Shown here one piece after another: positions 1,070 through 28,000 of a DNA stretch of 64,000 nt. This DNA comes from Protonemura montana (taxonomy: Eukaryota; Arthropoda; Insecta; Plecoptera; Nemouridae), in contig OX387606.1 in the NCBI GenBank assembly GCA_947568835.1, positions 8,370,001 to 8,434,000 of the forward strand, written 5' to 3'. The notes below the pieces were generated by a model. It did no database searches, was not told where the DNA came from, and saw only the letters and a list, made by a program, of their open reading frames with translations. Both the position numbers and the translations under genes were made by a program. How positions within the stretch are numbered: the stretch's first letter is position 1; each line of letters opens with the position of its first letter.

Positions 1070-4000
1070 GTGAGTGGAGCAAATAGAGGATGTGACGTGC
1101 GTGGATGAATCACAACGTTTTCAGAAATCGAGGCTTTTGTGTAGTTACGTGTACACTGCTCTGTTTCACGTGAAATTACATTGTAACGTGGTTCCATTGC
1201 TACCAGTTCGATGATCTTTGGAGAACAAATTAGTTCCATTTTCCTCTGCTCGCCTGATAGGTCGATTGATCTAAAATGCATATGGTAAATTCACTATTCA
1301 CAATATTGCGAATTGTCCATCAATAATCGCCCAATAATTAGCGGAGCGAGCATCGAACCCAGGCCTGCCTAACGTCCCTGTCCGATGATTTTAGCGAACA
1401 TAAACATCATTGCATTTCTATGGACACGGAAGCTCAGGCGCGCACAGCTTTGATGTTTTCCCTGCGTGCGCGTTACGGGCTGCGTACCTCTTGGTTCTAA
1501 CACATCGTCAAAATGTGCCGTTACCTTGCGGCATGTGGGGTATTTTGCTTCTCAGGACTCATGTCCGTACCAAAAATTATACTTGACATAATTCGTTATT
1601 AGATTTGACACGTGTCGTGTGCATAGCCCAAAATGTGCACATTCAAACGCATGTCGATACAAAAATTACTGTTTTCCCTTTAGATTTCTAGCCAGCAAAC
1701 GAAGAAAAACTTCACATTGGCAAAAAATAGCTATTATTTTCATGCGTCTATTCACTTCGAATAACCATTGTGCTAAAATTGTCCTTCTTTTGTTTCGTGT
1801 GTCTCCTTTGTTGCTTTTGCCTTCCTAGCCCTGTTCGGTTATCTATGCGCGGCCCTCCAATCAGCAACCTTACAGCCTTACATTATCTTTTCAAAGAGAA
1901 GCTCGTAACTTGTACGTAACTAAATCTTGACCTGTGATTTCTTGACTTCAGATCCCTTGTCAAGACTTTCCTTTATTTCCACTGTCCCCATCTTGTCTTA
2001 CAATCTCCATCTCGCCTTGCAAACACAATCACTTTGTCCTCCTATATGTTGCAGCCGTGTTTGCATGTGACTTACGCAAGTTGCATAGATGCTACAGATA
2101 TTTCCAACATATTTCAATTTCACTTTTGTGACCTCTTTTTTTTCCCCACGCTCAGTTTTTACAGCAATTTCTATAAAAAGAAATTGTTTTTCTTTGACAG
2201 TGCCCAATACACTTGTTTTGTTCACGTCGCATGGCTTGTCCCATTAGAAGAGTTGTTCTACCAAAGCCAAATTTTTCTAACTAAACAAGAATCGATTCGG
2301 AATTCTGCCATCGCGTTTCCTTCAAGACACGTCTCTATCAAAGGGAGCGTACACGGCGGAGCGTGCCAATATAATTCGCGATCATTTAGGTCGCTGCCGG
2401 CGCCGGGGGGCTAACAAGACGTCTAGAAATTTCGATAAATTATCAGCTGCAACAGCCCGATATGTTATATCGTTACCCCACCCCAACCCTGCCCACCTGC
2501 CAAGCCGTGGCCCGTCAACGCCGTTGATGCAATGTTATGCTTCAGCCTTCAACTAATAATCATTACACGTACACTTGAGAAAACACTGGAGATTTTAATG
2601 AAATATGGAAGCACGCTCCCTCTAGTTAGTTAAGTAACACATAATATTATACACCTTCAGTGATTGATTGGTCTTTAAACCATCTCCTCTTGTAATTTCC
2701 TTGTTCTCCTCTCATCTCCTTCGTTATACTAACTCGAGCAATCCTTCACATATTAATTTGATAGAACACGAGGTCACGGCGTCACATGTAACGTAACAAC
2801 AAACTAATGTCGTTCACTGGGTGCAACTAACTGAATTCTACGTCTATGGATAGACATCTAATTCCAGATTGCTCCATTCACGCACCTGCACGCAACAATG
2901 CGTCCATGTGCGTGAATGTGCGTCGTACTGTTGCGTGCGTGGGCTCTTAAGACGCACGAGGCGTCGCATCGCGGCGTCGTGAGAGTCGCGCAGAAATCAG
3001 GATATTATTATTATGAGAGAGTGCCGATTTAATTTTAGCCTATCGCCGTCTTGAATCGGCGGGCGACATCGCGGATTGCGGCCCGTTTGGCCTGACCCGG
3101 CTCTCGCGCGAGGAGCTCTCAAGGAGCGGCTCTTTATAAATAGGAAACGATCTTGGGTTCGAAAATTGCTTCAAGAAGACGCTCGCCGATGAAATTATAC
3201 GCATTACGCGGTGTCTCCAAACGGTCTTACGTGTTAGTGGGTGAAATCTGGAGCAGGCCGTTTTCAAATTTCGGCGACGGCGGATGTTGTGTCCCAAAAT
3301 ATATAAAATGGCATTTTTATCGCATTTTCACGGATGATATTATAAGCGTCACTAGCGTCACAACCTTGCACCGTCGTAACTTATTAGCATTTCGGAATTG
3401 GCGCAATTTGAAAACATCGCATCAACGAAAGCCTCTGTAGAACTTTTGAAGGTTATTTTATAATTCCAACTCTTTTCATGTGGATTTGAACTATTTAATG
3501 ACCAGCCACACTACCTTGTAGACCGGGGCTGTATTCCCTGCAGTGTACCTCTAGGGTAACTAGTACACTTCTAAGAGAAAATAATCCTAAAACGAAGTGA
3601 ACTCGTCGAACCCCCGCCAGGATGCAGCACCCTCCACAAGGTGTCGCGGGCTGTGCCAATGTCATACGTCTTGCCAGGAGAGCGTCGTTGGTGTTAGCGG
3701 TGGCGATGGGGTTTTTCTCTGCCGGGGGTACCGGGGGCGGGGACGCCACCGGGAGGCGGCGGTAGATAAGAGAGCAGGACGCTTCGACGGAGGCAGCGGC
3801 GGCGGCGGCAGCTGAGGCAGAGAAGAGATCGACGTGCGCTCTGCACAGCGGCACAAGGCTATCGATCCTGTGCGGGCTCTGCCGACGCCGACGCCGCGAC
3901 GCATGCATAGCGCCGGTTACCGCCGCGCGGCCAGGGCGAAGATGCACAGGGTTAGGTTAGGGGGTACTTTTTGGAGATTGGTCTGCTTTAGCAGCGCGAA

Positions 4001-7000
4001 TTCGGTATGCCCTTGTACCCCCTCGCTAGCAACCGGCTTCGCATGGGAGGGCCGGGTTCGACGCTCAGTAGATGGCGGGGAGTCGGATTTTAAAGCCGGC
4101 GTCGACGCTGCTACGGTTGGGATACGGTTAGGGAGGTGGTGGCGTCGTTTTTCGCCGGTTTGTTTGTTTCATTTGACAGATGTCGTCGTGTTTGTGTGCA
4201 AGATTAGCGTCATTTTATCTTGAAATCTCCTCAAAGAGAAGTGTAAGTGGACTTACAAATAGATTTACTCTTTTCCATTGTTATACATTATGGATATTCT
4301 TTGTCCGTAAATGTTTGTACTTCACCACCTTTATTGAGATAATCCGATCGCTACGTCTAATCATATTCAGTGCGCTTATACATGTTTGTAATTCAACGGG
4401 CTCAGAACGGGTGGGCCCAGATGACAGCTGACTTTTATCGTAAAGCCTGTGGCAAAATATTTTTATCGTCAATATCGAATGTTTCGTGGCCGGAGATCAA
4501 TCGTGCGGAGACCTCCCATGTGAATTTTAGCCGGTGATTTCCCACAAGGCGACTTTGTGTCCTATAATTTGATGAACTCCCGTCGCGGCGTCTACGTCGC
4601 CCGGCCTTCTCGCCGTCGCACACGGGCGTCGTCGATGACCTGACCGACGACGGAACCGCGTGTGGACGCGTGCTTCATTAATTAGGTTCGCACGATTACT
4701 CGCACAGTACGGGGTGCGTGCGGCTGTGCGTGCATGTCGCTCGTAACGAGATGCTTTATGACCGGAGACGCATTACATTTTTACTTGCTCATACTTTTAT
4801 GAAGATTGTTTGCGACGGAATTGTTTGGCAAGCTGTTGAAAGGTTGATCCGAAATAACTTTTTTTATGAAAGTGTGTATGACCGGTCATAACATGCTCGT
4901 CATATTTTATTTCAAACAAGCATAGAAAGAAAAAAATTCTCGTTCGTGTGTTTCATTATTTATCAAACGTCAAAATTTTGAATACCCGGCGTGACATGAC
5001 ATTGATTTATAATGTTTTTCTTCTTCGCATGTCATTAACCGGGTTAGTTTTGTAACAGCTGGTTAACAATTTAGCAGTCCGTTAAGGTTATTTTTAAATC
5101 GTGGTCGACGCAATCACATTTGCGGAATCGGCTCACCGCGAGCCAACAGTCGAAATTGAAATTGAAATTGAAATTGAAATCGCAATTGTTTCGTCGTAAG
5201 CGACGTTGGTAACGCACAACGTAGCAAAGTGTTTGATTTCAAGTTTCTGCTTAAAAATTTCTTGCGACTTTAATGTGCGTTCATGGCGACGCCCGTTCGA
5301 GGACACCACTCGTGAATAAATCTGCAATACTGCGTCTTTTAACCGCATTTCTTATTTATAGATCACTTATTGCGCACACTCATACGAATACGTAATTAGG
5401 TTTTCTTGGACATCCATGTACTATGCGAGTAGATGCGGAACTGAGAGGCAGTGTGCACGTCACACATTATTCCAGCTAATATCAATGCTTTGATTGTCAT
5501 CCAGAACTTTGACGTACTTATAAGACACGTTGCTCGATGACGTTTTCCTGTCACTGTCTCTTCCTGCAGTTTGCCAACAGAAAGGCTTTGCCTTTCTGTA
5601 ATTCTGTAATTCTGTAAAAATAATATCCCAAAAATCGTGTCAACTTTGTCGAAGTTGCCATCTTCTAAATAAAATAGAAGACTTTAATTAAATTTTGATG
5701 TGCTTTCATTAGATCCATTATGAAGCATCATAACTTCTCACGGAAAATGGCAAGATAAAGCTTGATCAAAAGTGTACTTGAACTTTACCAATCAATGTCA
5801 AATAACATCAACGTCAATCTTTCACAGCAAAACAATGTGATGTACCTTAACAAAATGTTTTGGACCAATAGTATTAAATATCGACCTCAACACGTCTGCT
5901 TCTCATCTCGCCTCAGCCTCTCTTCTTCCTCCATCAAGTATTCTCGGTTGTAAATGCGAACAAGGCCGATTAAAGTCGCATGCAGAACCGAACGGGGTTC
6001 GATCTCACAGACCCTTCACTAGTTGATGGGTGCTGTAGTAATGGTACACCACTCGTGACATAATTAATGCGTCCGTCGCTTAGCGTCTGATCGCGTCGTA
6101 TCGATGCGGTTAGGGATGGAGATTAGGACTTGCTATCAATATGCTGCTGACACAATTTACATATTTGCGTCTTAATGAGGAAGAGGTGATAAAGTGGAGT
6201 GACCACTACGTAACAGTTTGAGCATTGCAATATTTTAAAGTGGAGAAATGATATTGTTTGAATGTGGCAATTTCTGTGAATTTGTCGTAAGAAAGCTCAC
6301 ACACATAATTTTCTATTTTTATTCGTGTTTCCTCTTTTTAGCAGTGACAATGAGTGAGTTAAAGCGTTGCCGGCGTGATCTCATCCACTGAGTCGCTAGT
6401 TGACAACACGAGAATGCAATTTTTTTTCGAAATATTTAATATTTCGACAGTAAATCGACTATAAGTGCTGTGCAGCGTTATTTAGGTGTATAAACCGTGG
6501 ATCTCTATTTCCTAAAGCGAGAGTAACCCAGTGCACGATATTTTTGTTCAACGAACTGCTTTCGGCTGAAGGCCGATTTCACCGTCATCAGGCTAAACTT
6601 GGTGTAAGCTTGGTTTAGGTTCAAGATTTTATTTTCTCCAAATCAAATATGTTTTGCAAAGGTCGGTAAATATTTTTTAGGAAAATGTTCAATTCAAAAA
6701 GTTGTGTTCTGTGATATAGAAACGAAGAGTAAGTACGTTGCGGTTCTGTCTGACACTAATTTCTTTGCTCTATTGATCTAGGTTGAAATTTTAAACGGAG
6801 ATTAATACGAAGAGGAAATATTGACAGCTACAAAATGAATTTTGTTTGATGTGACAGAACAGTGCCGTCTTGAATACAAATCACCTTTGAAAGTAAATTT
6901 CCATTTTTTTTTCAAGTATCTGTCAGATTATCCGAAAGCAAGAGTAAAAATTCAGCTTAAGTGTTCGATGAAGATGTGCCGCCTACTCGTGGGGTTGTAG

Positions 7001-10000
7001 ATCAGAAAGGACGCGGCCCCACGGTGTAATTTACGGGTGTTAATTGGGCGACTAACGAGCCCGGGTGACACCGCTTCGAGTCCCGCCACAATGTGTCATG
7101 TTTAATTGGATAATTATGTAGCCGGGGTCCCGCCACTCGATCTGATCGGCAAGGCGAAACCAGGGTAACCCTGTGCTGTGCTGCGCGTTCACATTCGATT
7201 AAAACCATTAAAAACGCTGCAAGTAAGATGGATGTGTGCCATGTCATTATTTCTTTTAGTCGCGGCGCCCTATAAAGTGAATTACCATCGCATCTAGTAA
7301 TTTATCTATCAAAATTCGCTATAATTCCTGTTAACCTACTTTTTTTTCTTAAATAAGTGTGTGGTGCATTTAAAATGCTATCACGAGCTTGCGACCAATG
7401 CTAACATTTATTTTCCTTGATATAAAGTGTCTTAACTCTATTTTTATGATGGTATTTTCCATGCTTTACAGCCGACAAGAGTTCTGGGAAAGACATTTCA
7501 ATCACCGATATTACAAATTGCAGAGCGCTTCGTCACATAGTTCTTAGTTTCAGGCCCAAAATTTGAGCAGTTAATTCTCATCAGTAAACTATCAACGCCA
7601 ATTTAATTGTTTGCCAAATTGCCGATACCTGTAGGTACTCCTTTGCGAAAACAAGCCTGCGGTTCCCGCTGTGGTTTCCACTTACAATTTCGATCTCCGA
7701 CGGGGCAAACTTAATTAGCCCAATCAATAAGCGGCCGCCTCACTGGCAAGACTTTGATCCTCGCTAATTGACTTGGTTGCCAATCAATTGCTGAAATTTG
7801 TGGACGACACTTGCGAGGCGCCCGACGCTTTGACAGCTACGTCGTCGGCGCTGGACGCCGCGGCGCCACCTTTCGCCGCCCGGCCCGTCGATGATTAGGT
7901 ACCTGTAAGCACTTGATCGACCGTAAATAGGCCAGCTAGTTTGACAGGCAATCAGCCCGCCATTATTCGCCGGCACAAGGCACAACACCTTTTGATTGCA
8001 GCATGATGTACATGTTTACAATCAGTGGTTCGCCGGCGTCGTGGATGCTGTGCAGGTTTCGAAAGACATTTAATCGAACGTTTCACATCACGGCGTTTTC
8101 AATTATGATTCGGGAATGTTGAGGTTGCCTGGCACCTTGAAAGCGAACGAATTTCTATTTCGGACTCGTGGGGAACTCGCTAAAGTGAGTGTTAGAAGTT
8201 CAATCGTAGTTGTCTTAGCCGGTCGGAATTTTGGCAGAGGATGCTTCAAAGCTATTTCGAGGATGTTCTATCTAGACGCTACTCTTCCGTATTTCCATTG
8301 GGGGGCATCCTAGTGGAATCAATAATATTGTGCTTAAACCAAAGCGTTAAACTGCGCCGTTAAACGGAATGCGAGTTGGTCGTTTCCGCGTTTGCCAAGT
8401 TATTGAAAACTCCTTATCGCGTATTGGCAAAGACGTGACCTGATCTGCTGCACCACATTTCCCAAATGTACTGGCCTACCCTATGCTACCCATGATAACA
8501 GCATGATTAGAACTGCGCGCAATCAATTGCCTTATCAACCAGGAAGTGCATTATATCGCGACGACACGTAGGTGTGACATGACATGATAGGCATTGTACA
8601 TTTTTTTTGCCTTCGTCTTCATGCCATCTTTGGTCATCTTGTACGGTCGTGATATTGTATTTTTCCCATCTCTCAAATCCCATGTGACGGCTGCAGGTGA
8701 TTGTGTTTTCGATCAAAGTTTTGCCTAAATTGGGTCAGGAGTGGACGCGTTGAGTCAGATGTATTGCGTCATCGCGCTGGCGACGGCGATGCTGGATGAT
8801 GGACCACGACAAGGTTGGTGGAGAGGTCGAACTAGCCCTGTCTGTCTCTTTTCTTCTCGTGACGACATCGGCAGTTCAGACTCTGTGTGCTATGCATCCC
8901 TCTCCGTCATGTCCCGCTCAGATCAGACGCTCTAACCTCTTTCCCAAAGTGAAACAAAAACATCTGTCCGGCCGCAGACTTTTATGTGTGTATATAGAGA
9001 AGGTTGAGAAATAAAAGTGTTCTCCCTCCGCTTGGGAATTCCGTGCCCCAGACTCTTTGGAGTTTAACCGACAACTGGTGCTTGATGGTCGTGCAGTTCA
9101 GATGCTAAATTATAATTTATTTGCGTATCGTTTGATCCCTAGACGATAGAAGCCAATCGATATATGATCTTATGTCGTCCTTCTATTTCACCTAGAAGCA
9201 TGCGACAAGTTGATGCTTCTCTGTGGCATATTGTGCATATCCCTGCCTTTGATCTCGGCCGTACAGCATACGGTACGGAGACCTCGATTCGACGCTTTGA
9301 GCAATCGACATGTGGACACCCTAATTTACAGCGTCGGCGTCGTTGTCTCCTTGCCTATAGGTATGACCTGGGCAGAGAAGCTGGTTAAGACCAAAACAAT
9401 TTTACACGGTCGACGCCCGTCACGGAGTTCCCAATAGTATTGAGTTCTTGCATTAATTTTGAGACTTGCATGCAAATGTTCGAGCTATTGTTGGTTTAAA
9501 ACAAAACTTGAAATGTGTGTCGAACCTCCATAATAGGTGAACGTGATCTGAGTCAGGCAGGCCTAATCTACCTACAAACATATGATGTTATATCATGAAA
9601 AAATAACTTCGACTTATCGCATGTGTTTGAAGAATTAGTCATGAATTCGAAAAAACAGTACATATTTCTTGTATTTCCTGATCAATCTGAGTCGATTGCT
9701 ATTTTTGTCACAAAAATGCGAATTCTCGTCCTCGATCAAAACATTTACATCTAACTTCGTGTCTTCCTGGACGCGCATAACTGTGTCTTCTGGCATTAAA
9801 GCGTGCTTATATTAACCTCTTCGCACCCGCTTGAAAACGCCCGAGTGTGGGAGGACTCATATCCCTTCAACACTGCAGCCAAGCTATTTCGAGATATTAG
9901 ATCGTTGTAAAAGAATGATCAAATCGAAATACATATCTCCCGCCCACGAGTTCGCGCGTAAAGGAAGATTACATAAACATGTGTCACTTCTGTCCCGGGA

Positions 10001-13000
10001 ATCGCGAGGACGTTGTTGGAAAGGCGTCGCGCGTCGGGACGCTTCCGACGCCGTCGCCGTCGTGTTGTCCTCTTCGCGTTCAGTCTGTCGCGAGATCGCG
10101 TCCCGCTCTGACGTCTAACCGCCTGAAAATCCATCCAGCGTCGGAAACGCCGTCTTGCGAATTATTTCCTCGTCTGCTGTTTTGTTATATTAACAATGTG
10201 ACTGTTTGCTCAGTCGCTAGTAAAGACGAATCGGGAGTTAGAATTGCTGAGTAGCGCGTTCACTAACAGAGCACACTTGATATGTGACTCTTATGCAGGA
10301 AGACAGCCGCGATTAGTGACTACGTTTCATATCCTGCGAGTGTGATGTGGCCGCGACTCTAAAGAGATCGTCTTGTCGGTTTCTTGAGACCGGGAGGTGC
10401 GTGCGATACGCGAATCAGTTCGTCGGCGTACACGGCCCGGAGTAGACCCGTCGACCTCGGTACTCGGTACTCGGTACTCGGACTGGCCGGCTTGACGCCA
10501 ACACGATGTACCAGCGGACAAACGGTCGGTGACAAAAGTGACAGTTGTGGTTTCCGTTAACGCAAATAATCGTTTGTAAACAGTGCGTTCGTGTACAGTG
10601 TGCTCGGGCAAGGCGTTCGCTGCGATCTCCCATGTTGGCGTTGCATAAGGAAAAGTCCCCGTGCGTAATGAGTGTCTCTGGTGCGTCCATGCAAGAGACG
10701 CCCGAGAATGTCGCGACTACGCCGACGACTCGGCGTCGCATGACCCTTGACAACATTCGCTTGGCGTACGATCGCGTGCAAAAGTACCTTACGGTTACAG
10801 GTAGGCAGGCGCTTGGCTGCCCCCCCCCCCCCCCCCCGTACGTTATCTCGACGTCTGCGAGAAACATACCTGCTTGATTTTGCCGATTTATAATTGAACT
10901 AAGTGGAAACAGTCACCTGGTATTTTTAATAATGGGGTTATCACAAATTCAAGCTTGCTTATTTACGCCAATTGGTTTTTGCTGTCTATGACTCTCTTAT
11001 TGCTGACTGGCCATCTAATGCGTTTCTTGACCGCACAAACGGTGTCCCCCTGGCGCCATTGTAATGGTTTTTATGAAAGTGGCCCTTGGTATTGGTATTT
11101 AGGACAGAAATTAAAAAGCTAATTATCATTGTTTTATGCTCCATCATCTCGACGCCCGTTCCGAAATTGGTGCGAGTTAAATGCGTATTATTTTCAAATA
11201 GCTTCTTGACAATGAGACAATTAGTATTAGCAGCTCGCATGTGACTCAGCTGCGGCTGTTGTGGACGAGCAGCGATGAGCCATAATTGGGTGTGAGAACA
11301 TCGCGTATACTTTGAGGCCGCTAGTGGCTAGATCTCTGCATGCCTCTCGATTGACAGCCCACAGATTGGACAATGCTTACCATAACTCAAACTCTGATGG
11401 CGGTTTCAATTTGAAATGTCTTTCCGTGTGCGAAGATATTTTGAACTCTTGTCGCTGTTAACTGGGCGATCTTTCAAGGCGGAAAATTCAGAAATGTGTA
11501 TGGGAAAAATAAGTTGACACGAAAGTTTTCTTTGAGAGTTTTCTTTGAGAGTTTTTTTATCCTTAAGAAAGTTTGCGTTTGTGTCGTGTAAGGGCTTGCG
11601 ACACGTGCCCTTTGTTCGCGTTTCGAAACGCGGTACAAGGCGATTCTTTTTCTCTCTTCACTGTTGTTTTGTCGCACGCGATGCAAATTGTTTCCTTCCG
11701 ATGCCGATTTTTGAACAATACCATCGCAAAAATTGACTGATATAATATTCTACGCGATTAATTGCTTGCCGTCTGGTATTGGTCGATTGATATTAATTAT
11801 CTTTACTTCTTCTGTTTTCTTCCGATCTCGCGACCTTTTCATTTTATCGACAAGTCATAACTTTAATTACAGCTACCACTCACGATAAACGCTAATCGGC
11901 AATCAAAACCTGGATTGCGCACGGGGTTATGGTTTGTCGGATGTGATGTTAATTAATCCAGAGATAGCAAGTAATGCTCTGAAGACATTAAGGCCGATGC
12001 CAGTAAATTGACTGTCTAGATAAATAGGTTCGAGCTCCATCTTGACCATATCGAGTCAAATTGATTTGCTCCGATGCTAGTGCAATTAACTGGATTTGCA
12101 TCGTGAGCCACCGTAATGTCTTGTTAGATGACCTCAAATCTGCATCATTTTTAACCAAATAACTACATCATCTGCGATGTGTGTATGATGCAAGTACAAG
12201 TTTGTTAACATTTAACAGCATGCGTCCATTTCAACATCTGCCATCTTCTTATACTGTAGCACACACTAAACCATTCATAATCCGATACGCCTTTCGCAGG
12301 AGGAATCTACTCGACTCAAAAAACGATATTCCCTATGTATGTGTGCTAAATTCCCTGCCAAACGGACGCCAAAACGTCCTAACGCAAATATCGCGATACG
12401 AAAACGACAATTTCTTCCGCCGATCATTGCTGGAATTGGGAACTTTCACACCTCTCGAGGCGATACATTATCTCCAAGCCAATGTCTTAACTCTATAGTC
12501 ATAACCTTCTACTCAATGCCGGATCGAGAGCTGATGGACTACCATGGTGGCACAATGACGACCAAGTCGATGATTCTAACAGTCTGGTGGTATTGTTTTG
12601 TTACAGAACCGGGCACCAGTGATGGCAGTGGTGGTGGCGCCGTGACCACCAACTCACCTGTCAACAAGAGGAGAGGCTTTAGTGGGTGAGTGTCGATCAA
12701 TCTGTTTACCAACACCTGCACTGCTAGCAACGACATGTCACTTATGCTACCACTGCGCTAACAGGATTACGTCAGTTAACTGATACATGAGGCTCATCCA
12801 GTCCGCTGTATTTCTACTACTGATTTAATTCCAAGTAATTGTCTGACACATGACGGATGATTTGGTCGAGTTAAAACCCTGATTAGCGGATAATCACTGG
12901 ACTCAAGTTCACGATCAATGTGCTGTAACAATCTTATTCAAATTGCAATCAGCTTCAACTTATGATGGTACCTAGCTTCGCTATATTTTTGGCACTCTAT

Positions 13001-16000
13001 AACGTACTTTATTTAAATTAAAACAATATATACAAAAGTAACTGGGAAATATCTCTTTCACAACTTGCATTCGCCTATTTGCCTAATTAAAATAATCCCT
13101 TTCCGCATGTCACTGCCAGAGTATGGCGAGTGGGACTTTGTCTTGAGCATGTCTTGAAGATTACGCCCTCGTATTCGCCATCTTGTGACATTGTCAAGAT
13201 CATGTTGTTCTCTGTCTATTCTACTTCTTAAGCCCTCTGGGCTTTCGGGCTTCGTGCATTGCGAAGCTGCAAATAAAAGCGTTTCTCTGCATTCGAGCTC
13301 CAAATTGTTCCAGCTTTAGGGATGCCAGAAAGTTCAATTAATTGTCCAGCGGCGACATTGCCAATTGGTATACCATATTGTATTAGCGCTCCAGCCAAGC
13401 TCCTATAACTCAACACTTGACAACAGATTAGAAAATGCTTTGCTTATCATCCCCTAATTGAGCCGACGTCAATGTAATTCAATGCGAACTTTGTCTAGAA
13501 AATTGTTGCTAATTTACGAATGTGCAATTAAGTTAAATTATTTTGTTACACTGCGTAGTTGTGTTGCAATTGCCGTAGCGTGGCATGCGTGCGAAGTCCA
13601 CGGTCCCAGCATTCTGAATTTGTCGTACCCGCGACTAGGTGGTGTTAATTTAGCAACTACAAATTGCTTTTTCGGACATGGTCTTTGGAGTCCATAATAC
13701 TCGAGCAAGTTGTTTACTCATCCGCATACTTGTGAGTACACGACATTCCCTAGCTAGTATTTTAGTTACCTCTTTATATATTGTCATTCATCGTCTTATC
13801 TTATCTTGAAGAGCAACTTTTTACTTCGCGTTATTTTCCAATACCATTTATTGCTAGAAAGTTGGCTCGAGCGTTTGATATTCCTGCGTACTATCTTATC
13901 GTAACCTTCTTGTTCACACTAAAATCGCTGAGAGAAACTAAGATAAGAAACATTCTGTCACCTCGATAGTGATATTTGAAGTGGGCATTCAGTATTTGTG
14001 CTGAAGCCATCAAATCAATAAGAATACCTGAAGAGTTACTGAGTTTATTTCGCTATGGCCTAACACCTGCAACTGCCATGACTTTTTCCATATTCAGTGG
14101 GTAAGCAGAGCCGACAACCGCAGCATTTGAGTCATGCAAAGATTTTCAGAAGCAAATTCGACGGCTGAGTTCGTTTGTTTTGTTTGTACTGACTTGTCTT
14201 CCACTCCCACGGAAGAGTGGTCGGCTTATTTCGCGTGACAATCACAGCAGGGTGCGCTATAACATCTGATTGAATCGACAGGAGGAAATGGCTACCACCC
14301 CCGCTGCGGAAACTGAGCCAAGGAAAGGTGGAGAAAAGTGCGACGCCCGAAAGGCCGGCGTCCAAGAAGACACCCTCCGATAAGAGATACAAGGTAAGCC
14401 ATCTCCTAGCAAACGCCTTTTATGGTCAAAACGTCGACAGTGTACCATGGACACTTGAAACCGTATGCGATAAGAATCAGCCACACTCGAAGCATTCTCT
14501 CCCTCTCAAGGGTCAAATCGCGCTAGAGATTTCTAATCGCACACCGCTTCATTCCGCCGACCGTCCTGCGGTGATTCTAAATGATCAAAATGTCTCAATA
14601 CCTCTTCTTTCCCGACCCGTTTCTCTGCGAACCAAACGCACACAATCAACTGGCGCGGTGTGGTTTCCCTCATCCTCTCTATATCTCGAGTTTCCTGTCG
14701 AATGGCTTGCGTGTCTCGAATGCCCCGCGTAGGGTTCGTGTAACAATAACACTATCTAGAATGTTTTGATAAAAAACATCATGCTCTGAAAAAGTGATAG
14801 ATTGCACTCTGTATACCGTTTTGCGCCGCCGGGATTTTTCTCTGCCATCACTTCCAGTCTTGTCCGGCGCGCCTGCATTGTCGTTGTCTTGCGTCGCCAA
14901 CTCCGTTGGCTTTTTCGGCGGGGTGCTTTTTTTCCGCACCCCACCCATCGAAAGTAATTTAATTTGTTATGGAAAATTGGTTTTTACAAGCGCTGGGATA
15001 TTAGTGTTCGTCTCGCTTATCGTATGTGTTTGTGTGTGTATCATGCGGCCCTGCCCATTCGTTTTAAACCACACCCTTGCAGTCCCTTGTGCCTATCATG
15101 TGATGCAATGAGCCGACTTTTCCCTGTAATTTTCGAATCATTACGAAAATGAATTCGCAAAATTTTCATCTGTCCCATCAACGGCAGTTAATTTAGATGC
15201 AATTAGATTCACAGACAACCACTCAAATCATTAACTGTTATTACTCGGTGGTCACAATAATAATGATAATATAGGCATCCATGGATGTCGTTAAAAAGCT
15301 ATCCTCATTAATTTTATGAAAAACCCTCTAGATAACAATCTGGCAGCTAGCTTCATTAATGCCTGGGTATTATAGAGTGCAGTGTAGTTACCCTCTACTA
15401 GGTACACCAAACAGCAGGGAAGTTGAGTCACAAAACAAAGAAAACCAGATGGTCAGTGATAACAAAAGTGACAAGCCAAAAAAAGATCAGGTCAGGTCAA
15501 AGGTGCCAAAGGTCGGTGACAAAGCTGGAAAATGTGCACCCAAATCAAGTTTTAAAATCTGGTTCACTTTCTGTCATTGTCAGAGAATCTTTTCACTGAT
15601 CAATCCAGTTGCATACTCTCTGCACTAATACAGCTCCCATTTCCCTCGTTATCCTTTCCTTTCATCTCGAGCGATTGGTCGCATGGCCGTTTCAAGTCTC
15701 TCCGTGCTAACCACGTGCTCACCTTGTCAGCTGCCCACCGGAGGCGACATGGGCAACAAGCAGTCGAGCGTGGCGGATGACGACGATAAGGCTACTCCGT
15801 CCCCGCGGGCCTCCGCCGCCCCTTACGCCGATCAAAATGGGGAGGAAGGCGAGGAGGACGTGGAACTGCCGCCACCGATGAAGCCCATCACTGAGCCCAC
15901 CATCCTTGTGTCCACGGCGGAAGAAGCGCAGGGGAAGCGGGTGAGTTGACGTTATGTTGTGATGATTGTTTCAGAGTGTTTTCACGGTGGAGGAAAAAAG

Positions 16001-19000
16001 GACAAAATTCCTCCCTCACTTCGTAAATTTTGCAAAAACCTGGCCATGGGCTATTTGATGTACATTTCTGAAGTTTTTAACAAAACTTTTACATCTTATC
16101 ATCATCTGATGCATTGTTGAGCAAATGAGTTATGAAATAGCTGCCGAAACTAGATGTTTCAAACCTTATTCTGAGGTTTTTTTTAATTCTGAGTTCAGTG
16201 ATCAGAAATTGCAAACCACAGGCATGTCAGTAATTTTTAGATTAAGCCACTGCAATATAAGGAATCATTGTAGAGGAAGTGTATTACTCATATTCTAGAA
16301 TTAGATAAGAATAGCAATTTAACAAACATTTATAAATGCGTCACAATCTGTCACCTCTGCTTATGTTATTCTTAATATAGCTACTAAATCATTTGAAGTA
16401 TTTGTAAAATGACATCTTCTCTGAGATGCCCCATTGACTTACGAGACATGCAATGGGTAATTCTGTTCATCTTCATAGCTGGCATTACCCATTTAGCAAG
16501 TGAGATGTTAGCACATAGCTTTTTCTCTTGCAGTCTTCTAGCCTCTCCCTGAAGGCTCTGGAAGGAGCTACCTCCGCTGACCTAGCTGAGATCGAGCAAA
16601 TCGTCAAAGAGAGAATGGTGTGTTTGTCGGTGGAAATGAGCGCATGCGTTTGTGTTAAGAGGACGGTGCTCGATTTGTGCTCGAAACTTCCGATAGGATC
16701 TAGAATTATAAAATGTGTTCGTTGACTCGTTGCTTTGTTCTGGACTTGAAGTTGAACTACGCTAGATGGCAGAAAGGGGATATTCCCACTAAAGCAATGG
16801 ATTTTTTTTTATGATTATGCATGCAGTTTTGAAGCATCATCCACTTGTGAGTGAAGTTGGATGCACTTTATCTGGAACAGATTTCCAATAATGTAGGCAT
16901 CTTGCCTAGATAAGTGGCTACTGCAACTTTTCTTTGAAAATTTTTCTGATAGAAGAAAAAGCAATATAAATCAATCGTGATTCTCAACGCTCAAGTATTT
17001 TTTAAGACATTTTCTATTTTCGATCGGAAGTTTCGAAACTAAAAAAACGGCGTTCAACGCTCTGTAGTTTCTTACTGCACCATGAATTTGATACGTCATT
17101 TGTGTGTTGTTTGCTGTTTTTATTAACAAAAGTTCTTTTTCAGTTTCAATCGTTTTATGCTTTGAGTTTTAGCGTCTTGATTTGTGCTCGTTTTTGTTTT
17201 GTAATTTGCTGCTTCTTACAGTTTATTTTATGCTGAACAAGTATTGATACCAGATTGTCTTTATTTTGAAATATTAACTACTTGCGTGTGTGTTTTTGTC
17301 ACCTGCATTTCTTGCCTTAAAATAATATTATTGATTATTTACTTCTTAAGTATGTATATATTATATCTTTTCTAGGCTATAGTTTTTATTGCTGACTTCC
17401 TAAGTAATAGCCAAAAAAATCCCCATTGACGTACAGAGTTTGCAGAATTTGGCTCAAAGTAATTTAAATGTTACATCTTCATCAATGATCTTCCAAGAAT
17501 TTTGCATACCTTATAAAATATTGTTTTCCTTATTTTGGTGAAATTTTCCAAGAGACTAGAGAAAAAAAGTATAATTTATAATTTAGGCAAATTGTTCAAA
17601 TCTACATAACTCCATAAAAAAAAAAAAATCATTGGAGAGTTGGCCTAAACCAAACAAGGTATCACTATCCCCCCATTTTCCTAACATAGTTATGATGATA
17701 ATCATTACTCAATCACTATGGCTAGAGGGCAAGTATCCAGCATCGTACGTATCGTAACTATTCTCTGCTGCTTATTGCAGGAGCAACACACTGAGAACCA
17801 AGAGCGAAACAGTCTCCTGAGCCGCGATTCTAAGGCGTCCAGCGACCTGACAACGGACGATGCTGACGATGACACTGAAGACCGCATGCGCGACATCCCC
17901 GCAGACGCAGTCAAGAAGCGCGAGTACGTGATCCGCGAACTGGTTGACACCGAGCGGACGTACATACAGGACCTGGGGCTGGTTGTCGAGGGCTACATGA
18001 CGCTCATGCGAGATCTAGACTGTGATATTCCGATGCCCGAGGATCTGCGCAAGGGCAAGGACAAAATGGTCTTCGGGAATCTCGAGGCTATGTATGAGTG
18101 GCACAGAGAGTAAGTCTATTTTTCTATTAAATTACAATCTGCAATTTTTTAGATTTTCCACGGCCTCACAACTGGTCTACAAATAACAAGAACAAATCCC
18201 GTCGTCTTTTCAATTCAACTTCAAAAGTGATTTTGTAGTTTACATTTTCCTTATGACTTCAACATATTTTCCATTGTTCGGTTTGACAAATATGGTCCAT
18301 TGTCCCCATGAACCATTTAACTATAACACACTGCAACAGAAAACCTCCCAGGTACACTTCAGGTATACTGATGTATTAATTGCTATGCTTGCAGCTTCTT
18401 CCTGAAGGCCCTCGAACGCTGCATCGTTCAGCCTCAAGAACTGGGCCCGCTTTTTAAGCGCTACGAGCGCAAGCTTCATATGTACGTTGTCTACTGCCAA
18501 AACAAACCCGTCTCCGAATACATTGTTTCTGAATACGAGACGTACTTTGAGGTAAGAAATCAAAATCTATACTAAATTAATGAGCACTTATCAAATTACA
18601 TGGGTAGAATCATTTCGATATCTCGTAATACAACCTTCAATCCATACCAAAATACCAATCTTTAAAAATCTGCTGGTTTTCAGTGGAATTTCCTTTCTTG
18701 ACAAACCTGTACACTCATCTTCTTTGACCAGAACTTTCTACTGAAATCAAGTCAATATTTTTTAGACAAATGCTAAACCTTAGAAGTTGAAAGTCTAAAC
18801 CCACAATTAAAAGACTACAGCATGCTCGAATCTTTTTTCTATGATGCAAGATGACATAACATGGATCTTCGTACACACATGTGCTGACCACCCTGTGCTC
18901 AATTCTTCCAGGAGCTCCGACAGAAGCTGGGCCACAAGCTTCAGCTGTGCGACCTGCTTATCAAGCCAGTGCAGAGGATCATGAAGTACCAGCTGCTGCT

Positions 19001-22000
19001 TCGCGACGTCTTCAAGTACACAGAGCGTGCGGAGCTGGCAGCCGAAGCAGACGTACTGCGCCAAGCGTTGCATGTTATGCACGTCGTACCCAAGTCGGCC
19101 AACGACATGATGGACGTAGGACGACTGCAGGGATTTGATGTGAGTTGGCTGCTCTTAAGATTCCAAACTTGGACCAAGCTATAAAAATCACTAGCTTGCA
19201 TTGGTGTTCATTATTATTTAAAGTGAACTTTTATTCAGCTGATAAAATATCCTCAATGGTCCGATGGCTCTTGCAAATGCGTAGGGCTAGCAACACTTTG
19301 TGGGAGTTTTTCTAAGTTACCAATTCAACAACCAAAAGATATTAGGTATAAACCAGTTAAAGTAGACCTAATGGCTGATTTAAGTTAAGGAAAGTCTTGA
19401 GCAATGTTCTTCTTGTGTCCTTGATATCGTGTTTGCTCAACATATATTGTTTAAATCATAACTGTATGAAGCAGGAATAGGCTCAATTTTGTATTAAATA
19501 TACTTTCATTCTATTTTCACACATCACATCGAATTACAGTCCACTCATGCAATTGTGATTTGGTTTCTTCAGGGTAAGATCACCGCACAAGGGAAACTCC
19601 TCCTTCACGGGCCGCTCCTATGCAGCGAAGGCTTCTCTTCATACAATTTTAAAGGCAAAGAACTCCAAGTATTCCTCTTCGAGCAGAACATAATCTTCAG
19701 CGAAGCCGTAGGCAAGAAGACGCAGTTCACCAACCCCGTATACATTCACAAAGCGCACATACAGGTTAGTCTTCACATCTTGGTGGCTTGCAAACATGCA
19801 GCAACTCACTGTCAGCATCAGTTGTTGGAGCTTAATGATTAAATTAAAATCAATTAACAAAGGATTCTGCCACATGTACCTTTGGTTATTGAACCAATCC
19901 CAAATGCAAATTACTTCTTGATGTTTATTTAAACGTATGCTATCTAAAGCTTGCCTGCCAGTAAACACAGATTGAACTGCGGAAATCCTCTTATGTTTTT
20001 AATACTTTCCTGCATTTTTTAGTCTTTAAATTAAATGTGAATGCTTAACGAACACTTCTGGATGTATTCCAAATTTGTGAACACTTTCTGGCCGGTCACT
20101 CTAGCTTCTCATTGTCATGCAGGTAAACAAGATGAGCCTAGAAGAAAACACCGACGATCGTGACACATGCAAGTTCGTGATCCGCTCAACGGACCCGCGG
20201 AAGACCAACCTCGGCTACGTTTGTCAAGCGGTCAGCGCAGAAAGTCGCGATGAGTGGGTCTCCACTATACGCAACATTCTCCAGACGCAAAAAGACTTTC
20301 TCATCGCGATACAATCGCCCATCGCGTACCAAAAGGAACTTACCAAAGAGGTGTAAGTATTACAGGCGGACCGGCACGGGTTTTTGCGGAGGCTTCGCAA
20401 GTCGATGGAAAGAAAATGTCGTCGAGACAGACTTTAACAACGTCGGTGGTTTCAGTTCGTTCATGCGACGGTTAGTTTCTTTGCATCGGATCGTTAGGAT
20501 AGCGTGCGGTATATTCGCCGGGACCAGATATATTCGTTTGTAAGTCTCTGTGATTTTTTTCTACGTCGGAGTTCGATCAAACGAGATTCAAACGCGAATT
20601 TCAAAAAATTAAATTAAATGATGAGTACAAGTATCTTGAAAAATAATACCTAAAAATACATATATATAAATAAAAGCTCTCTTAATTCTAACTTTGAATT
20701 CACTTCAAGCCAGAAAATCAAATGCCAAAGAGCAAAAGAAGCGTTTTATTATATTCAACTAACTGCTTAGCGTAATAATCGTGTTGCTGCGCGCACTTGT
20801 CGCCAAGGGGCCCCGCCGCTGCCAATGTCGATTCGTTGAATGCCAATAATATATTAATAAATAGGCTGTCGTAAACTATAGGATCCTGATTGCATTTCTG
20901 AGTGTGAGAATACAGTGAGATATTACAATGATGTACATAATAATGAATGTTTGTACATATAAATAAATAATAGCAGAACCTTTTTTTCAAAAAAAAAAAT
21001 GATTGTGTCATCATTGAAAATAAGTTAGATTAGTTAGATGTCCCATTCGATCCTCGATTCCTGGCTCAAGGTATCATTTTGGCTTCGTTCGGCACTATCG
21101 CACTATTTGACGCCTGATTTCACACACGTTGTTATGATTTTCTTCTGCTCTTTTGGTACAAGAACACAAAACCAATGGTTCACTTCTGTACAATTTGCAT
21201 CTACGGCACTGCGTTCAATAGCTTCGTATTTTTTGGCTTGCTTGATGATTTTTTCCAAGAGCTGGATTATTTTGTTATTTTTGTTTCGGAGTAGGTTCCG
21301 GAAAATGCATGCGATTTTTGATAGTACCATCCTTTGTGATGACTACTATCAGAACTTATTTTGCTTTTCTCTTTCAAAATGTACGTTTTTCACGCTACGT
21401 ATATATTCACCAACACGCGTCTATTTTTCCGACAACCGTGGGGAAGACACTCACAGTAACACATAACACTTTTTTATTTTTCACGACAGACGCATTTTTT
21501 GTAGATATTTTATTTTCACGCTTGCTTGTTTCCCACGCCAGCTCGGGCCCTGACTTCCACTCTGAATGGAGCCCTTCGGTCCGCAAAGCCATGTCCCAGC
21601 CTCCTCCCTCCACCCTTTCCCCCCCTCCCCTTCTAGCTGACCCCGACTCGGTGGCTGCCAGCAACGGCAACGGTATCAGCAGGACCGGGAGCCCCAACAA
21701 GAACCACCGCATGAACCTTTTTGAGGGGTTCCGCAACACGCTCCGCTCTAGACCCAAACCCGACGCCGCCAAGGAAGTCAACTTGGAGGAGAAGGGCATT
21801 AACAGGCGCTGGTCAGAAGTGGGCACCACTCATGGGGTAAGGAGACAAAAGGTGACTAGGCAGATGACTAAGGTAACTCTCGCCAAAGCGCATCGCTCGG
21901 AGGCAGACGTTGCAAATAAAAGCTGCGACTTTTCTGAATCTCAGCTTATTTAACTGAACTTGTTAGCTTTTTTTCTGTGGTCTTCTGTTTTTTTTTTTGT

Positions 22001-25000
22001 TCAACAATTGTTTTGTATTGAGTGGCTTTGGGTTGCATGGGATGTGATGGAATCCTGTGATTTTTATTAACAAAAAACTATGGAGTAGAATTAAAGGCTG
22101 AGTCTTCATTGATTCTCTTTGACAGTGATTTTAAATTTCCTTGTTAGCTTAACTCCTGATCTGGAAAAATTGATGTATTGTTAATGAGAAACAGTTAAGG
22201 TCAGGCATTCAATTCAGATTCTAGAATTCAGAGTGAATAATTCTAATTAAACAATCTTTGTGGTGACTAGTAGGCTTTTCCTGACTTACTAATTCTAGCT
22301 GTACTCTGTCATATGATAAATTACATCTACGGGTGTTAGCTGGTCAAATTTTGCTCTTGGTTTAACAGAATAGGAAGCGATAAATACCTCAATCTAATTT
22401 TTATTTCAAATATGTATTTTAATTTTTAATGTTTAACTGCTGCACCTTCAATCGAGTTGATTGATTTCCATTTCCATTCTGTCATGGAAGAATTTTGCCA
22501 GGGTACTGTGGTCTTGTAAATTTGAAACGTATCACTTTTTTGAGCAACCAGCATCTCTTATTTACTTTTATTCAAGATATGAATGTATGTTTGCACTTGG
22601 TTGTCTAGCAAGTTGGTACGTATTCTTATACTGGGATTGAGGTATGGCTAGAATTCAGGTATCGAATGGCAAACCTGTACAATTGTGATATTAGTGTGCT
22701 TTGTTCACCAATAGCTAGAAAGTATTACCATCTGGTAAATAAATAAGTAGATCTTCGACGATTGGGTAAAATGGCAACTTTTTTGTAACAAAATACATTT
22801 TGAAATATGTGGCACTTCTATAAAAAATTTTTCTAACTGCATGTGTTGTGTGGTCTTCTTAAAGCACATACATGGTATGTTTCCCCTTACTAACAACCTT
22901 CTTCCTTCACCAAACTCACAACCTTATGTTACCACGTCGATCCTTCAATTTGCATCTTCTCTACTAACTGCCTCTGCATTTGGAACAACTGGGAGATTGG
23001 TTGGAATGTTTTAGAGGTAAGCCAAGTTAAATCATTGCATGCAATGCTTTGTTTACTGACTGGTTGAATCTTTTGTTTTTTGGCTTTCGCTCTGGCTATT
23101 TGAGTCAATTATAGGCACAATTGTAGAGTCTAATGGCATAATGCCAAGATTCAAAACTACAAAAATGTTAGTGCAGTTAAGTTTGGCTTTGTTGTGGCTG
23201 TATTTATAATTCATATCTGGCTTCTTTGACAAATGAAAGTTTGAATAGAAATTCCACCCAAAAAACATTATTTCATATTTCTAATCATTGCTTCAAACTG
23301 GATTATCCAATAATTCAATTAAATTAATTGTTCAGGTTGCATGAAACTTGGCATGCACGTAAAAGCTTACTTGCTGTGGAATCTAGATTGGCAAACCTGA
23401 ATGCCGTTCCTGTCTACAGTGTGACGGTGCAATGATCGCTGTGGGCTCCGTCGTGAAAACGATAGCAGACTTCCGAAGTTCAGAGCTGACATTGAACAAT
23501 GGAGATGTAGTTCAGGTGTGGGCATTGGATTCGACGCGAGGTTACCTTATCCGGCACCAGGTACGGAGCCCCTGTTTGGAGTTGTGATTTGAAAGAAAGT
23601 AGAGATGGGCAGCTTAACATGTCAGATGTCTTTCTCTGAGCTTTGAAATTTGGTTAGAGAGAATTAGGAACCAAGCAAGTGTGCCCTTCTTATGATGAGC
23701 AGAAATAAAATTTATCTAGGGATCCTGTTTACCTCTCAACCTTTCAAGCATCCAGGATGGGTTTGCTATCAGTAATTTAAAAAAAAATTGTAATTAGCAA
23801 ATAAATAAAATGTAAATATAGTTTAAATCGTCTCGACTTGCCATTCCCACCTTGGTGTATAGCAATTGAAATTAGCCCCACCTAACATTTATACGATTCA
23901 CCAGGGTGGCGAGGGCTGGGTCCCTCATCATGTGCTACATCCGGTCTGTGAAGCTGGACGCAAGCCATGGTCATTCCGGTTCCGCAAGCCGAGCTTCAGT
24001 GGGGGTCGACGCGGGGAGCGCCGTTCGTTTGATGGTGGAAACGTCTCGCCTCAAGGAAGCTATGGCGGGAAGCAAGGACTCATCCTTGAGTATCCTGCCA
24101 CTGGACCGGAGTTCCTTGAGAGGCTCAGTGATGTCAGCGCAGCCGCTGGCACCACTGCCGAGCTCAGGTAAGAAAAGTTGTTATACTAGGACCGTAGAGG
24201 TGCAAAAATTGGGTGGTATTTTTTTTGCTTTTTATTTCAATATTGTTAATAGAAAAAGTGTATTCAGAGCTGAAAAACTACAAGAATGTCCAACGTTTCA
24301 TTGTAAGGTATGCTCTGATGGTATTCATTTGGAAAAATTTAGCTCATTCTCTTCAATGAAGCAATACTTTAGCAACATTTCAGAAGTGTTAAACAGAAGA
24401 TAGTGAAGCACAATAGAGCCTAGACCTTAGTTAGCATAATTCAAAAGAAATAAATGTGTTGACAACTGGTGTTTTGCACAGGTGCCGCCTACAGCCGGCG
24501 TGTGACGTGGATGTGACCTGGCGGAAGGCCAGCGGGTTTCACGACTGTGCTGGGGAGGTAATTCGAAGCGAGGGTCGCTACAAGGTGAGCCTGAGCAGCG
24601 CAGGCGAGGCAGCCGTCATCGTCGATGGATGCCAGCCTGCCGACTCGGGCCAGTTCACCGTCACCGCATGCAACGACGCCGGATCTGTATCATGCTCTGC
24701 ATGCCTCACTGTCGTTGGTATGTTATTTTGGCACGATCGTAGGATATGGCATTTAAGGACTTCAGTGGACATTGCTTTCATTTTAAATAAACTTTTTAAA
24801 ACTTGATTTCTCTGACCTATTACTGGGCTTATAAAGTGTTGTTATAAAATACTTAGTTTACTTTTGGCCTTCTGTAAAACTTTCTTTATCCATAGGCCAA
24901 TGTAAAATTAAAAGCCTCTCATTTGTCATTAATAATTATTTTAGACATTCTTATGTATATATTAGAATACATATTCCTTTTTCTATCTAATTTCTACTTT

Positions 25001-28000
25001 CTCCTTCTACTTATTCCAAGGAACTTTGAGCCTTGTTAAAGAGATTTAATCTGATTTGTACTCTCGTAGTTTGAATGGACCAGTAAACGTTCTGCTTTTG
25101 CATTAAAAAAAAACAGCGGTAATACATTATTGGGGTGAAGAAGAGACTAATCTGATTGCTACACCTTAGGCTCAACGTATGGGGTCCCCACACAGCCATT
25201 GGTGCAGCCGCTAGGCGAGACGAGCGCGATGCTTTCGTGGTCAGCAACTGGTGACTTTGTACTCGAATGCTGCCGAACGCGGCTGGGCGACTGGTTGCCG
25301 GTCAGCGGCGGAGCAGTGGTGCGTGGGCCCTCGCATGCCGTCGATGGTCTTGCACATGGAGAGACATATGCCTTCCGCCTTGTCTCGTCGGGCGCTAGTG
25401 TCGCCGGGCCTGCATCCCTTCCAATCACCATACGCAGCTCCGACGCGGGCAGGTACGTTCGATTGGGCCTGGGCTCATCTAGGAATCAAGCAAAGGGCAG
25501 CAATTAAGCAGTCTCACTACACTAGGATTAATTTGAGTTTGCCACTTTCTGGGGTGCTTGTACCAACCTAGAAAACATGACACCATGATGCCACTGTTAA
25601 CTATCCGATTTAAAAGCAACAAAATAATGTTTTTCTTTTGTTGAAACATTAAATAATTTCAGGAAAACAAAATATTTAATGAAAAACAATAAATATTAAT
25701 CAACCAAAGTTAAAATTAAGATATTTTGGATTACTTTGAACTTTTATCAGGTTTTGGCAGGAAACCAAGCTTGCAAACTGCTTTTCGGCAGCCATTGCTA
25801 GAATCCGCTAGTGTGCGATAGGTATTTAGCAGAAGCCATTAGGACTTTTAGTTTTGCATTTAAGTTCTTATTTTTCAATAGAATTAATTTCACGTAAATA
25901 AACTGATAAATTCACAAAGAATTTAAGTGCATGATGCATTGTTTGATCATAATTTTCTGGTTAATTTTCAAACTCCCCGGTGAAGACTGGCTTTATTTTG
26001 CATTCTAAAGTTGGCAATGTGTAGTCAGAGTCCACAAGGTTGTGGCAAGGTAAGGCTAACACAACTGTATACAATAACTTTACTCCAGCAGTTGAAAATA
26101 AAACCGATATTTCTTGTAGATAGCCAAAATTTTATATGGTAAATAACTACCCATATTGTTGCATACTAAATCAACGTCTACTACCACGCTTGGCAGATGG
26201 CAGCAAGAGCAGTTTGCACGGCGCTACACTGCAATGGAGGAGCTTGGCCGTGGCCGAGCGGCGATAGTATGTCGCGCTAAGGACCGTGGGACTGGACAAG
26301 AAGTTGCCGCCAAGCAGGTCTCGCGCCGACGACAGAGTCACCACGTGACCCACGAGGAGTATGCCATCTTGTCCCGCGTACAACACCCAAACATTGTGCG
26401 TTCGCTTGTGCTGTTTAACAACGCACCAAACCCAGGGGCAGACACCATCGTAATGGAGCTGTAAGTTACAGCTGTATAATAACATCACAGTACATATTAC
26501 TCTAAATAATTTGTGGGTCTTACCATTACACTACAAAAGCCACATTACCTACTTGAACAACACCTTGCATAGCATGGGTTTGCCATAGAATAGTCCGGTG
26601 TAGTTGAGTGGAGGGTAATGTGACCAGCACATCAAATCTGGCAGAAGTTTTAAGGCCATAGATTTACGACAAGGTCTTGTTTCAGTGTCAACGGGCCTTA
26701 CCTCTTCACGTACGTGTGCCGTGACGAGCAGTACAGTGAGAAAACGGTGATCTTGTACATGAGGCAGCTTCTGCTTGCTCTTGCGTACTTGCACGATGAG
26801 AAGATCGCTCATTTTGATATCAAGGTCAGTCTCATAGAAGCAATCCCCTGTTTCTTCAGTATTTTGTCATTCTGGCTGCTGTCATATTCCTGTTATATGT
26901 ATTCCCTTTTGCAAATCAGAAATGATGGGCATATACCTACTATAAATGGGTTATTTAATTTATTACTGGAAGATAATAAATTGTTTAGTTGTAGGTACTA
27001 TAGACAACTGAATCTCAATTTTTTTTTAAGTTATGAAATTTGTGATTTTAATTGACTAAAGGGTGCACTTTTCATCACCATTTTAAATTTCTCTATTGTC
27101 CAGACTTTTTACTGAAACTCAGTTGGGGTAAAAATAGTTCCATTTTGTGATCCAGCCCTGCAAAAAATCTGCAAGTTTAGAAAACAAGTTCAGTTGCTAG
27201 GAAATGTAGCATAACTGCATAAACAAGAATAATACATTCTCATGTATGAATAATCGGAGAAGTCTTATCGGCTTGGAATTCCTGGTACTTAACTGATTGA
27301 CAAGTTACATGTTGTGACTAGACAATAAGTAACCGTGAGTGTTTGTTCTCCAGCCGGAGAATGTGATGGTGGACGTCTCGGGTGTGAACCCAGTGCTCAA
27401 GCTGATTGACTTCGGTGATGCATCGGGTGTTCAAGAGGCAGAGCTGGTGCTGCCCCCATCCAATCTTGAGTTTGCTGCCCCTGAGCTGGTGCTGGGCCAA
27501 CCCGCTGACTGTCAAGCCGACATGTGGAGCGTCGGTGTCTTCCTCTACGCATTCCTCAGGTAGCCCACATTGCCCGAAATGAGCCACGTAGAAATTATCT
27601 AGAGAAATGTGAAAATGTTAAGTCTAGCCACTTAGGTTTTCCTTTTCTTGAAAATCATTTAGTTACCTTTCACTTCTTCAATGATTTCTACCAAACAGTT
27701 TTGTATGTTGGAAACACCGGTTCTCATGAGATCACCGAAGTTAAGCAACACTGTGCTAAGTCAGGTATTGTATGGGTGACCATCATACACATGACCAGTT
27801 CTGTTCCGGAGAGAGGTTAGAGGGATGAAAGTTTGTACGCCAACTTCATTCGCCTTGCGTATCAACCTCTCAACGGCATGGATGTGTAGAGGAATCTTGC
27901 TGTTCAAGTTGTACCATCCTTCGGAAGGTACGTTAAGCCGGTGGTCCCCTTGATGCTCTTCAACAGGAGTAGGCTACTTGCCGGTACCTGGTTTCCTCTC

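Follow-up and report, generated by a model that had tools for sequence, protein, structure and literature searches.

A candidate internal promoter with an alternative first exon in the linker intron of the Protonemura montana trio gene, predicted to yield an isoform from GEF2 to the kinase

Does the trio gene of Protonemura montana (Plecoptera, Nemouridae) carry an internal start from which its second exchange-factor domain would be made without the first? According to passages of PMC12309612, GEF1 of Trio acts on Rac1 and RhoG and GEF2 on RhoA, with GEF2 held back by PH2. We analyzed a stretch of 64,000 nucleotides (GCA_947568835.1, contig OX387606.1, positions 8,370,001 to 8,434,000, or C4:8370001-8434000; hereafter the window), in which the original prediction had placed a promoter and first exon for a short trio isoform. 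On the evidence set out below, the linker intron probably contains an internal promoter with a first exon, from which an isoform running from GEF2 to the kinase would start, and the chance that the exon at 10417-10800 is real appears better than even.

Judged by its domain matches and their order, the gene that surrounds the candidate is a full Trio. Upstream of the window (L005) lie Kalirin-like spectrin repeats (Spectrin_6, 3.3e-12) and GEF1 (RhoGEF, 6.5e-38), the latter matching structures of human Trio GEF1 at 1.2e-119. Within the window, on the plus strand, follow the SH3-1 exon (790-1069, ending in phase 1, its 5' edge unsettled), the linker exon 12607-12685 proposed as splice partner (phase 1), two linker exons at 14282-14393 (starting in phase 2) and 15731-15940 (starting in phase 0), the first GEF2 exon at 17781-18109 (RhoGEF 1.8e-10; human Trio GEF2, 6d8z, 8e-18) and the rest of GEF2, comprising DH and part of PH, at 18402-20347 (RhoGEF 1.7e-12 and 1.3e-4, the latter below the cut-off; PH 1.2e-8; exon edges unsettled). 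Reading of the sequence places a further linker exon near 21500-21900. Downstream, again on the plus strand, are the probable SH3-2 exon at 23387-23584, the Ig domain at 24480-24731 (I-set, 2.5e-08), the FN3 domain at 25172-25459 (fn3, 0.0017) and the kinase exons at 26192-28557 with three matches (Pkinase 1.3e-10, 5.4e-12 and, below the cut-off, 2.4e-4). Because the matches of SH3-1 and FN3 fall below the cut-off and SH3-2 has no Pfam match, these three domains rest on their order and on reading by eye. The order found (spectrin repeats, GEF1, SH3, GEF2, SH3, Ig, FN3, kinase) is that of Trio and Kalirin, and the placement of the candidate inside a Trio gene is borne out on both sides, by the spectrin and GEF1 matches upstream and by those of GEF2, Ig and kinase downstream. 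The host intron spans 1070-12606 (11.5 kb).

Other features of the gene and its surroundings were recorded. The linker exon at 15731-15940 encodes MGNKQSS in frame, a fitting N-myristoylation site should translation ever begin at it. A linker-like exon, MSSGSGASKPQKAKRKISLPWFRQGSV.., at -5204 to -4860 (L007, upstream on the contig) is preceded by an open stretch and is possibly another alternative start. The kinase keeps IDFG at 27351-27560; vertebrate Trio and Kalirin have IDLE at this position. Between the kinase exons, a 5S rRNA match (27694-27806, plus strand, 49.6 bits for a gathering threshold of 38) perhaps marks a 5S-derived repeat or a stray gene copy. At 31242-33900, a sequence is present in two closely similar copies at a distance of about 1.6 kb (frames at 31242, 32880 and following), which look transposon-like by eye.

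The core promoter was examined against an Inr of TCAKTY and a DPE of RGWYV at exactly +28; these consensuses, like the splice matrices used below, are generic ones without training on this genome. Read directly in the window, an Inr-like TCAGTT stands at 10415-10420 of the plus strand with its A+1 at 10417, and a DPE-like AGACC stands at 10444-10448, exactly +28 to +32, so that both consensuses are matched at 10417. All the letters of the Inr and DPE that had been claimed 215 bases before an ATG are thus present. In 448 kb of strand (both strands of the window, of 60 kb upstream and of ten 10-kb loci), the exact pair of TCAGTT and AGACC occurs once, and the consensus pair 14 times. Neither TATAAA nor TATATA occurs in 10001-10900. 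We regard 10417 as a plausible initiation point of an Inr+DPE promoter. Shortly 3' of the DPE, the putative 5'UTR holds a 7-base tandem repeat (CTCGGTA, 3.7 copies, 10456-10481).

The exon might also be real with its start elsewhere, either through a farther 5'UTR exon joined to about 10299 or through dispersed initiation over the CpG-dense block described below. The acceptor at 10299 is fair (2.72), further YCAKTY sites stand at 10080 and 10210, and CpG-dense promoters often have many start points. However, the plus strand of intron 1070-12606 has no Inr with an exactly spaced DPE other than that at 10417, and we consider a start elsewhere improbable.

The proposed first exon (10417-10800, plus strand) is delimited by the Inr+DPE pair, an open frame and a donor. 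Its coding part, 10632-10800, holds 56 codons and one base and opens with an ATG 215 bases from +1; the upstream stop that had been reported in the same frame is there, as a TGA at 10539. The context of the ATG at 10632 is poor (CCC ATG T). Among the other in-frame ATGs (10668, 10689 and 10740), the usual rule of thumb favors that at 10668, which has G at -3 and A at +4; it would leave 44 residues 5' of the junction and may be the actual start. An upstream reading frame of 8 codons (10506-10532, plus strand) lies in the proposed 5'UTR.

The exon ends at a phase-1 donor, GTAGGC at 10801-10806, preceded by CAG. Its end at 10800 leaves one codon base and exon 12607 opens with two, as it does for its partner in the long form, the SH3-1 exon, whose end at 1069 is also in phase 1. 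The acceptors of the three exons that follow are out of phase (14282 in phase 2, 15731 and 17781 in phase 0). The original prediction had called this a good donor in the one fitting phase; the phase stands, 12607 being the sole fit among these four, but with 4.26 bits on a generic matrix the donor is of average strength (five other trio donors score 3.5-7.06). When 10800 is spliced to 12607 in silico, translation runs on for 299 codons without a stop and reaches into GEF2. At the level of sequence, the candidate has the layout of DUET-type forms: a first exon placed within the linker intron, a phase that fits the linker exons and a product that would start after GEF1. The intron holds one other phase-1 frame whose donor reaches 4.0 (8621-8696, 25 codons), and no Inr+DPE lies near it. 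A run of 18 C lies shortly 3' of the candidate's donor, at 10820-10837.

The same donor could in principle serve an exon internal to the long form. As a poison exon, entered at 10299 or 10584 and left at 10800, it would bring in stops or a frame shift and lead to RNA decay. In-frame stops do follow the acceptor at 10299, and the acceptor-like AG at 10584, though out of phase, scores higher (-0.46) than a true trio acceptor, that of 15731 (-0.77). Against this, AGs that equal or exceed that of 15731 are common, with 689 among the 3524 of the window's plus strand, the sole in-phase AG 3' of the stop at 10539 is at 10696 and scores -4.52 bits, and the Inr+DPE pair would be left idle; a poison exon is accordingly very improbable in our estimate. 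The scan of all AGs from 10280 on also led us to reject a coding cassette exon, because beyond the last in-frame stop at 10539 that AG at 10696 is the only one in phase.

The proposed start lies in a CpG-dense block (10001-10750). Counted in 500-base steps, the two highest CpG numbers of the 64 kb are those of the steps from 10001 (61 CpG) and 10251 (55 CpG), with observed/expected ratios of 1.63 and 1.46 for a window median of 0.98. CpG-rich surroundings had been predicted; this holds for the count, the highest in the window, but by ratio the step at 10001 ranks only 9th, behind for example that at 4751 (1.79). A second CpG-dense block lies in the same intron at about 2751-5000, with GC-rich frames near 3600-3960, and contains no phase-1 frame of at least 8 codons with a donor of at least 4.0. 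CpG-dense blocks therefore need not be first exons, which favors the view that the block at the candidate is an intronic regulatory element, such as an enhancer or the promoter of a noncoding RNA, with frame and donor there by chance. CpG density also means fewer stops and longer frames on both strands, and frames of 113-165 codons are found on the minus strand here. We hold this view to be rather unlikely, on the grounds of the chance tests and codon scores that follow.

The intron's plus strand has one frame of at least 56 codons that opens with ATG and runs to an equal or better phase-1 donor, and its minus strand has none; at 10 random loci, the density of such frames is 0.3 per 10 kb on one strand and 0.1 on the other. 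We then defined a composite as an Inr+DPE pair at most 500 bases before the ATG of a frame of at least 40 codons that ends at an equal donor. In the 448 kb of strand there are 54 combinations of frame and donor (at least 40 codons, any phase), and the only one with the pair is the present site. The intron was also resampled as 1500 shuffled sequences in which dinucleotide frequencies were kept by 500-base blocks. A frame of at least 50 codons with a phase-1 donor appeared in 127 of these, as would suit a regulatory element with an accidental frame, and Inr+DPE by itself in 418. Only one of the 1500 had the Inr+DPE pair in register with a frame of the right phase and its donor, which speaks against such an accident; this figure overstates the case, because the composite test was designed after the site had been seen. 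Taken together, the anatomy (motifs, frame, phase, CpG peak and Trio on both sides) exceeds what chance easily gives.

The coding signal of the candidate frame is weak, a further point on the side of a regulatory element. The frame opened at 10632 scores 0.20 bits per codon, a value reached by 4.7% of Markov sequences and level with the weakest three of the trio training exons that were taken in their correct frame (0.19-0.24), the remaining ones being higher. With training on the window only (omitting 23400-23570 and the upstream exons), the score is 0.23. Among noncoding windows, which overlap since they were taken at 7-base steps and from which the linker exon near 21500-21900 and other exons were left out, the score is reached by 1 of 109 that were GC-matched and stop-free (GC 0.48-0.62) and by 16 of 331 of any GC. 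The regulatory-element view is opposed by the fact that this plus-strand frame is the best-scoring of the six. An antisense gene was considered as well and rejected: the minus-strand frames, three in number and overlapping, score from -0.13 to -0.003 per codon.

The peptide had been described as unlike any known. This can be kept in a limited sense: the Pfam search gave no match above the cut-off (the sole hit was Dmrt1 at 0.046, below it), the PDB search gave none up to an E of 10, and the genome (258 Mb, 34 contigs), searched with the candidate as DNA and as protein with common words skipped, returned one match each, the candidate itself. On these single self-matches, a repeat origin of the exon was rejected. 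The peptide is basic and ends in a putative helix with a heptad pattern, as judged by eye; we make no claim on the helix, because the helical moment of the peptide is unremarkable and 11.5% of shuffles reach the same value.

The searched assembly includes the mitochondrial genome, contig C34 (15,885 bases). One half of it reads I-Q-M-ND2-W-C-Y-COX1-L(UUR)-COX2-K-D-ATP6-COX3-G-ND3-A-R-N-S-E-F, with L(UUR) between COX1 and COX2, and the other half holds V, L(CUN), ND1, S, CYTB, ND6, P, T, ND4L, ND4, H and ND5. The protein genes were named by eye, and ATP8, the rRNAs and two tRNA calls inside COX1 were left out. We take this order to be the pancrustacean (insect and crustacean) ground pattern.

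In the reading that we prefer, a TATA-less promoter of the Inr+DPE kind, located within the linker intron, would start transcripts near 10417, and the first exon 10417-10800 would be spliced to exon 12607. The protein would consist of 44-56 residues of its own followed by the linker, GEF2, SH3-2, Ig, FN3 and the kinase. It would activate Rho through GEF2 without the Rac/RhoG-directed GEF1 or the spectrin repeats, as DUET-type isoforms do; the Rho half would stay under the control of PH2, and the parts that place the long form would be lost. By analogy, the isoform would be a separately controlled and differently placed Rho activator with a kinase. What the sequence shows is the set of elements, their phase, how rare their combination is and which gene this is; that the candidate exon is transcribed, spliced in this way and translated, and what its protein does, we infer. 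The short isoform originally proposed is supported in part.

In a more specific version, which we regard as possible though on balance doubtful, the isoform would be DUET-like and pancrustacean, would be driven by a regulated Inr+DPE promoter of its own, and would carry a basic, lineage-specific peptide ending in the heptad-patterned helix, which would place GEF2 and kinase away from the sites of the long form. If this were true, GEF2-only Trio forms with a kinase would have arisen or persisted in arthropods as in vertebrates. If the candidate is real, the Rac-directed and Rho-directed halves of Trio would be split by an internal linker start in vertebrates, nematodes and arthropods, and one ancient arrangement could therefore be tested against repeated invention. 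The reading of trio knock-outs in upstream exons would also be affected, because a GEF2 form would survive them; such survival is reported for the Kalrn spectrin-exon knock-out mouse in passages of PMC3541206.

GEF2-only isoforms started by a promoter within the linker region are already known as DUET, with a parallel in UNC-73; what follows is drawn from passages of the papers cited. In mouse Kalrn, the Duet promoter sits in the intron that precedes exon 35 (PMC3541206) and also gives a form with GEF and kinase (PMC3541206, PMC11630257). Human KALRN has several DUET starts, with abundant transcripts that begin within the gene and are missing GEF1 and all that precedes it (PMC11630257), and the Duet promoter is described as rarely used in rat or human brain (PMC3048553). 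Exon 12607 is the third before the GEF2 exon 17781; exon 35 of mouse and exon 37 of human, the latter located just 5' of GEF2, are named in two papers that may number the exons differently. In rat brain, a band detected with GEF2 and C-terminal antibodies was taken for Trio Duet, and it was the cytosolic fraction that contained more of the Duet form, the long forms being enriched at synaptic junctions (PMC5132261). In C. elegans, the D1/E isoforms of UNC-73 serve the RhoGEF2 function (PMC3280986), and the pharynx and the vulval muscle are sites of action of UNC-73 splice variants that resemble Kal Duet 9 (PMC3541206).

Like the candidate, Kalirin DUET starts internally between GEF1 and GEF2 and loses GEF1 and all before it; unlike the candidate, which is a reading of genomic letters, it is a vertebrate form with several starts whose transcripts and tissues have been shown. 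Trio Duet of rat brain is, as the product of the candidate would be, a short Trio product with GEF2, but it is known as a protein band and the candidate as gene sequence. UNC-73 D1/E resemble the candidate as invertebrate Trio isoforms on the GEF2 side. The worm protein is not known to have a kinase. Short fly trio transcripts exist; in the passages returned by a literature search on fly trio isoforms, no GEF2-only one was found. If the candidate is true, its new part may be an arthropod case of such an isoform that includes the kinase.
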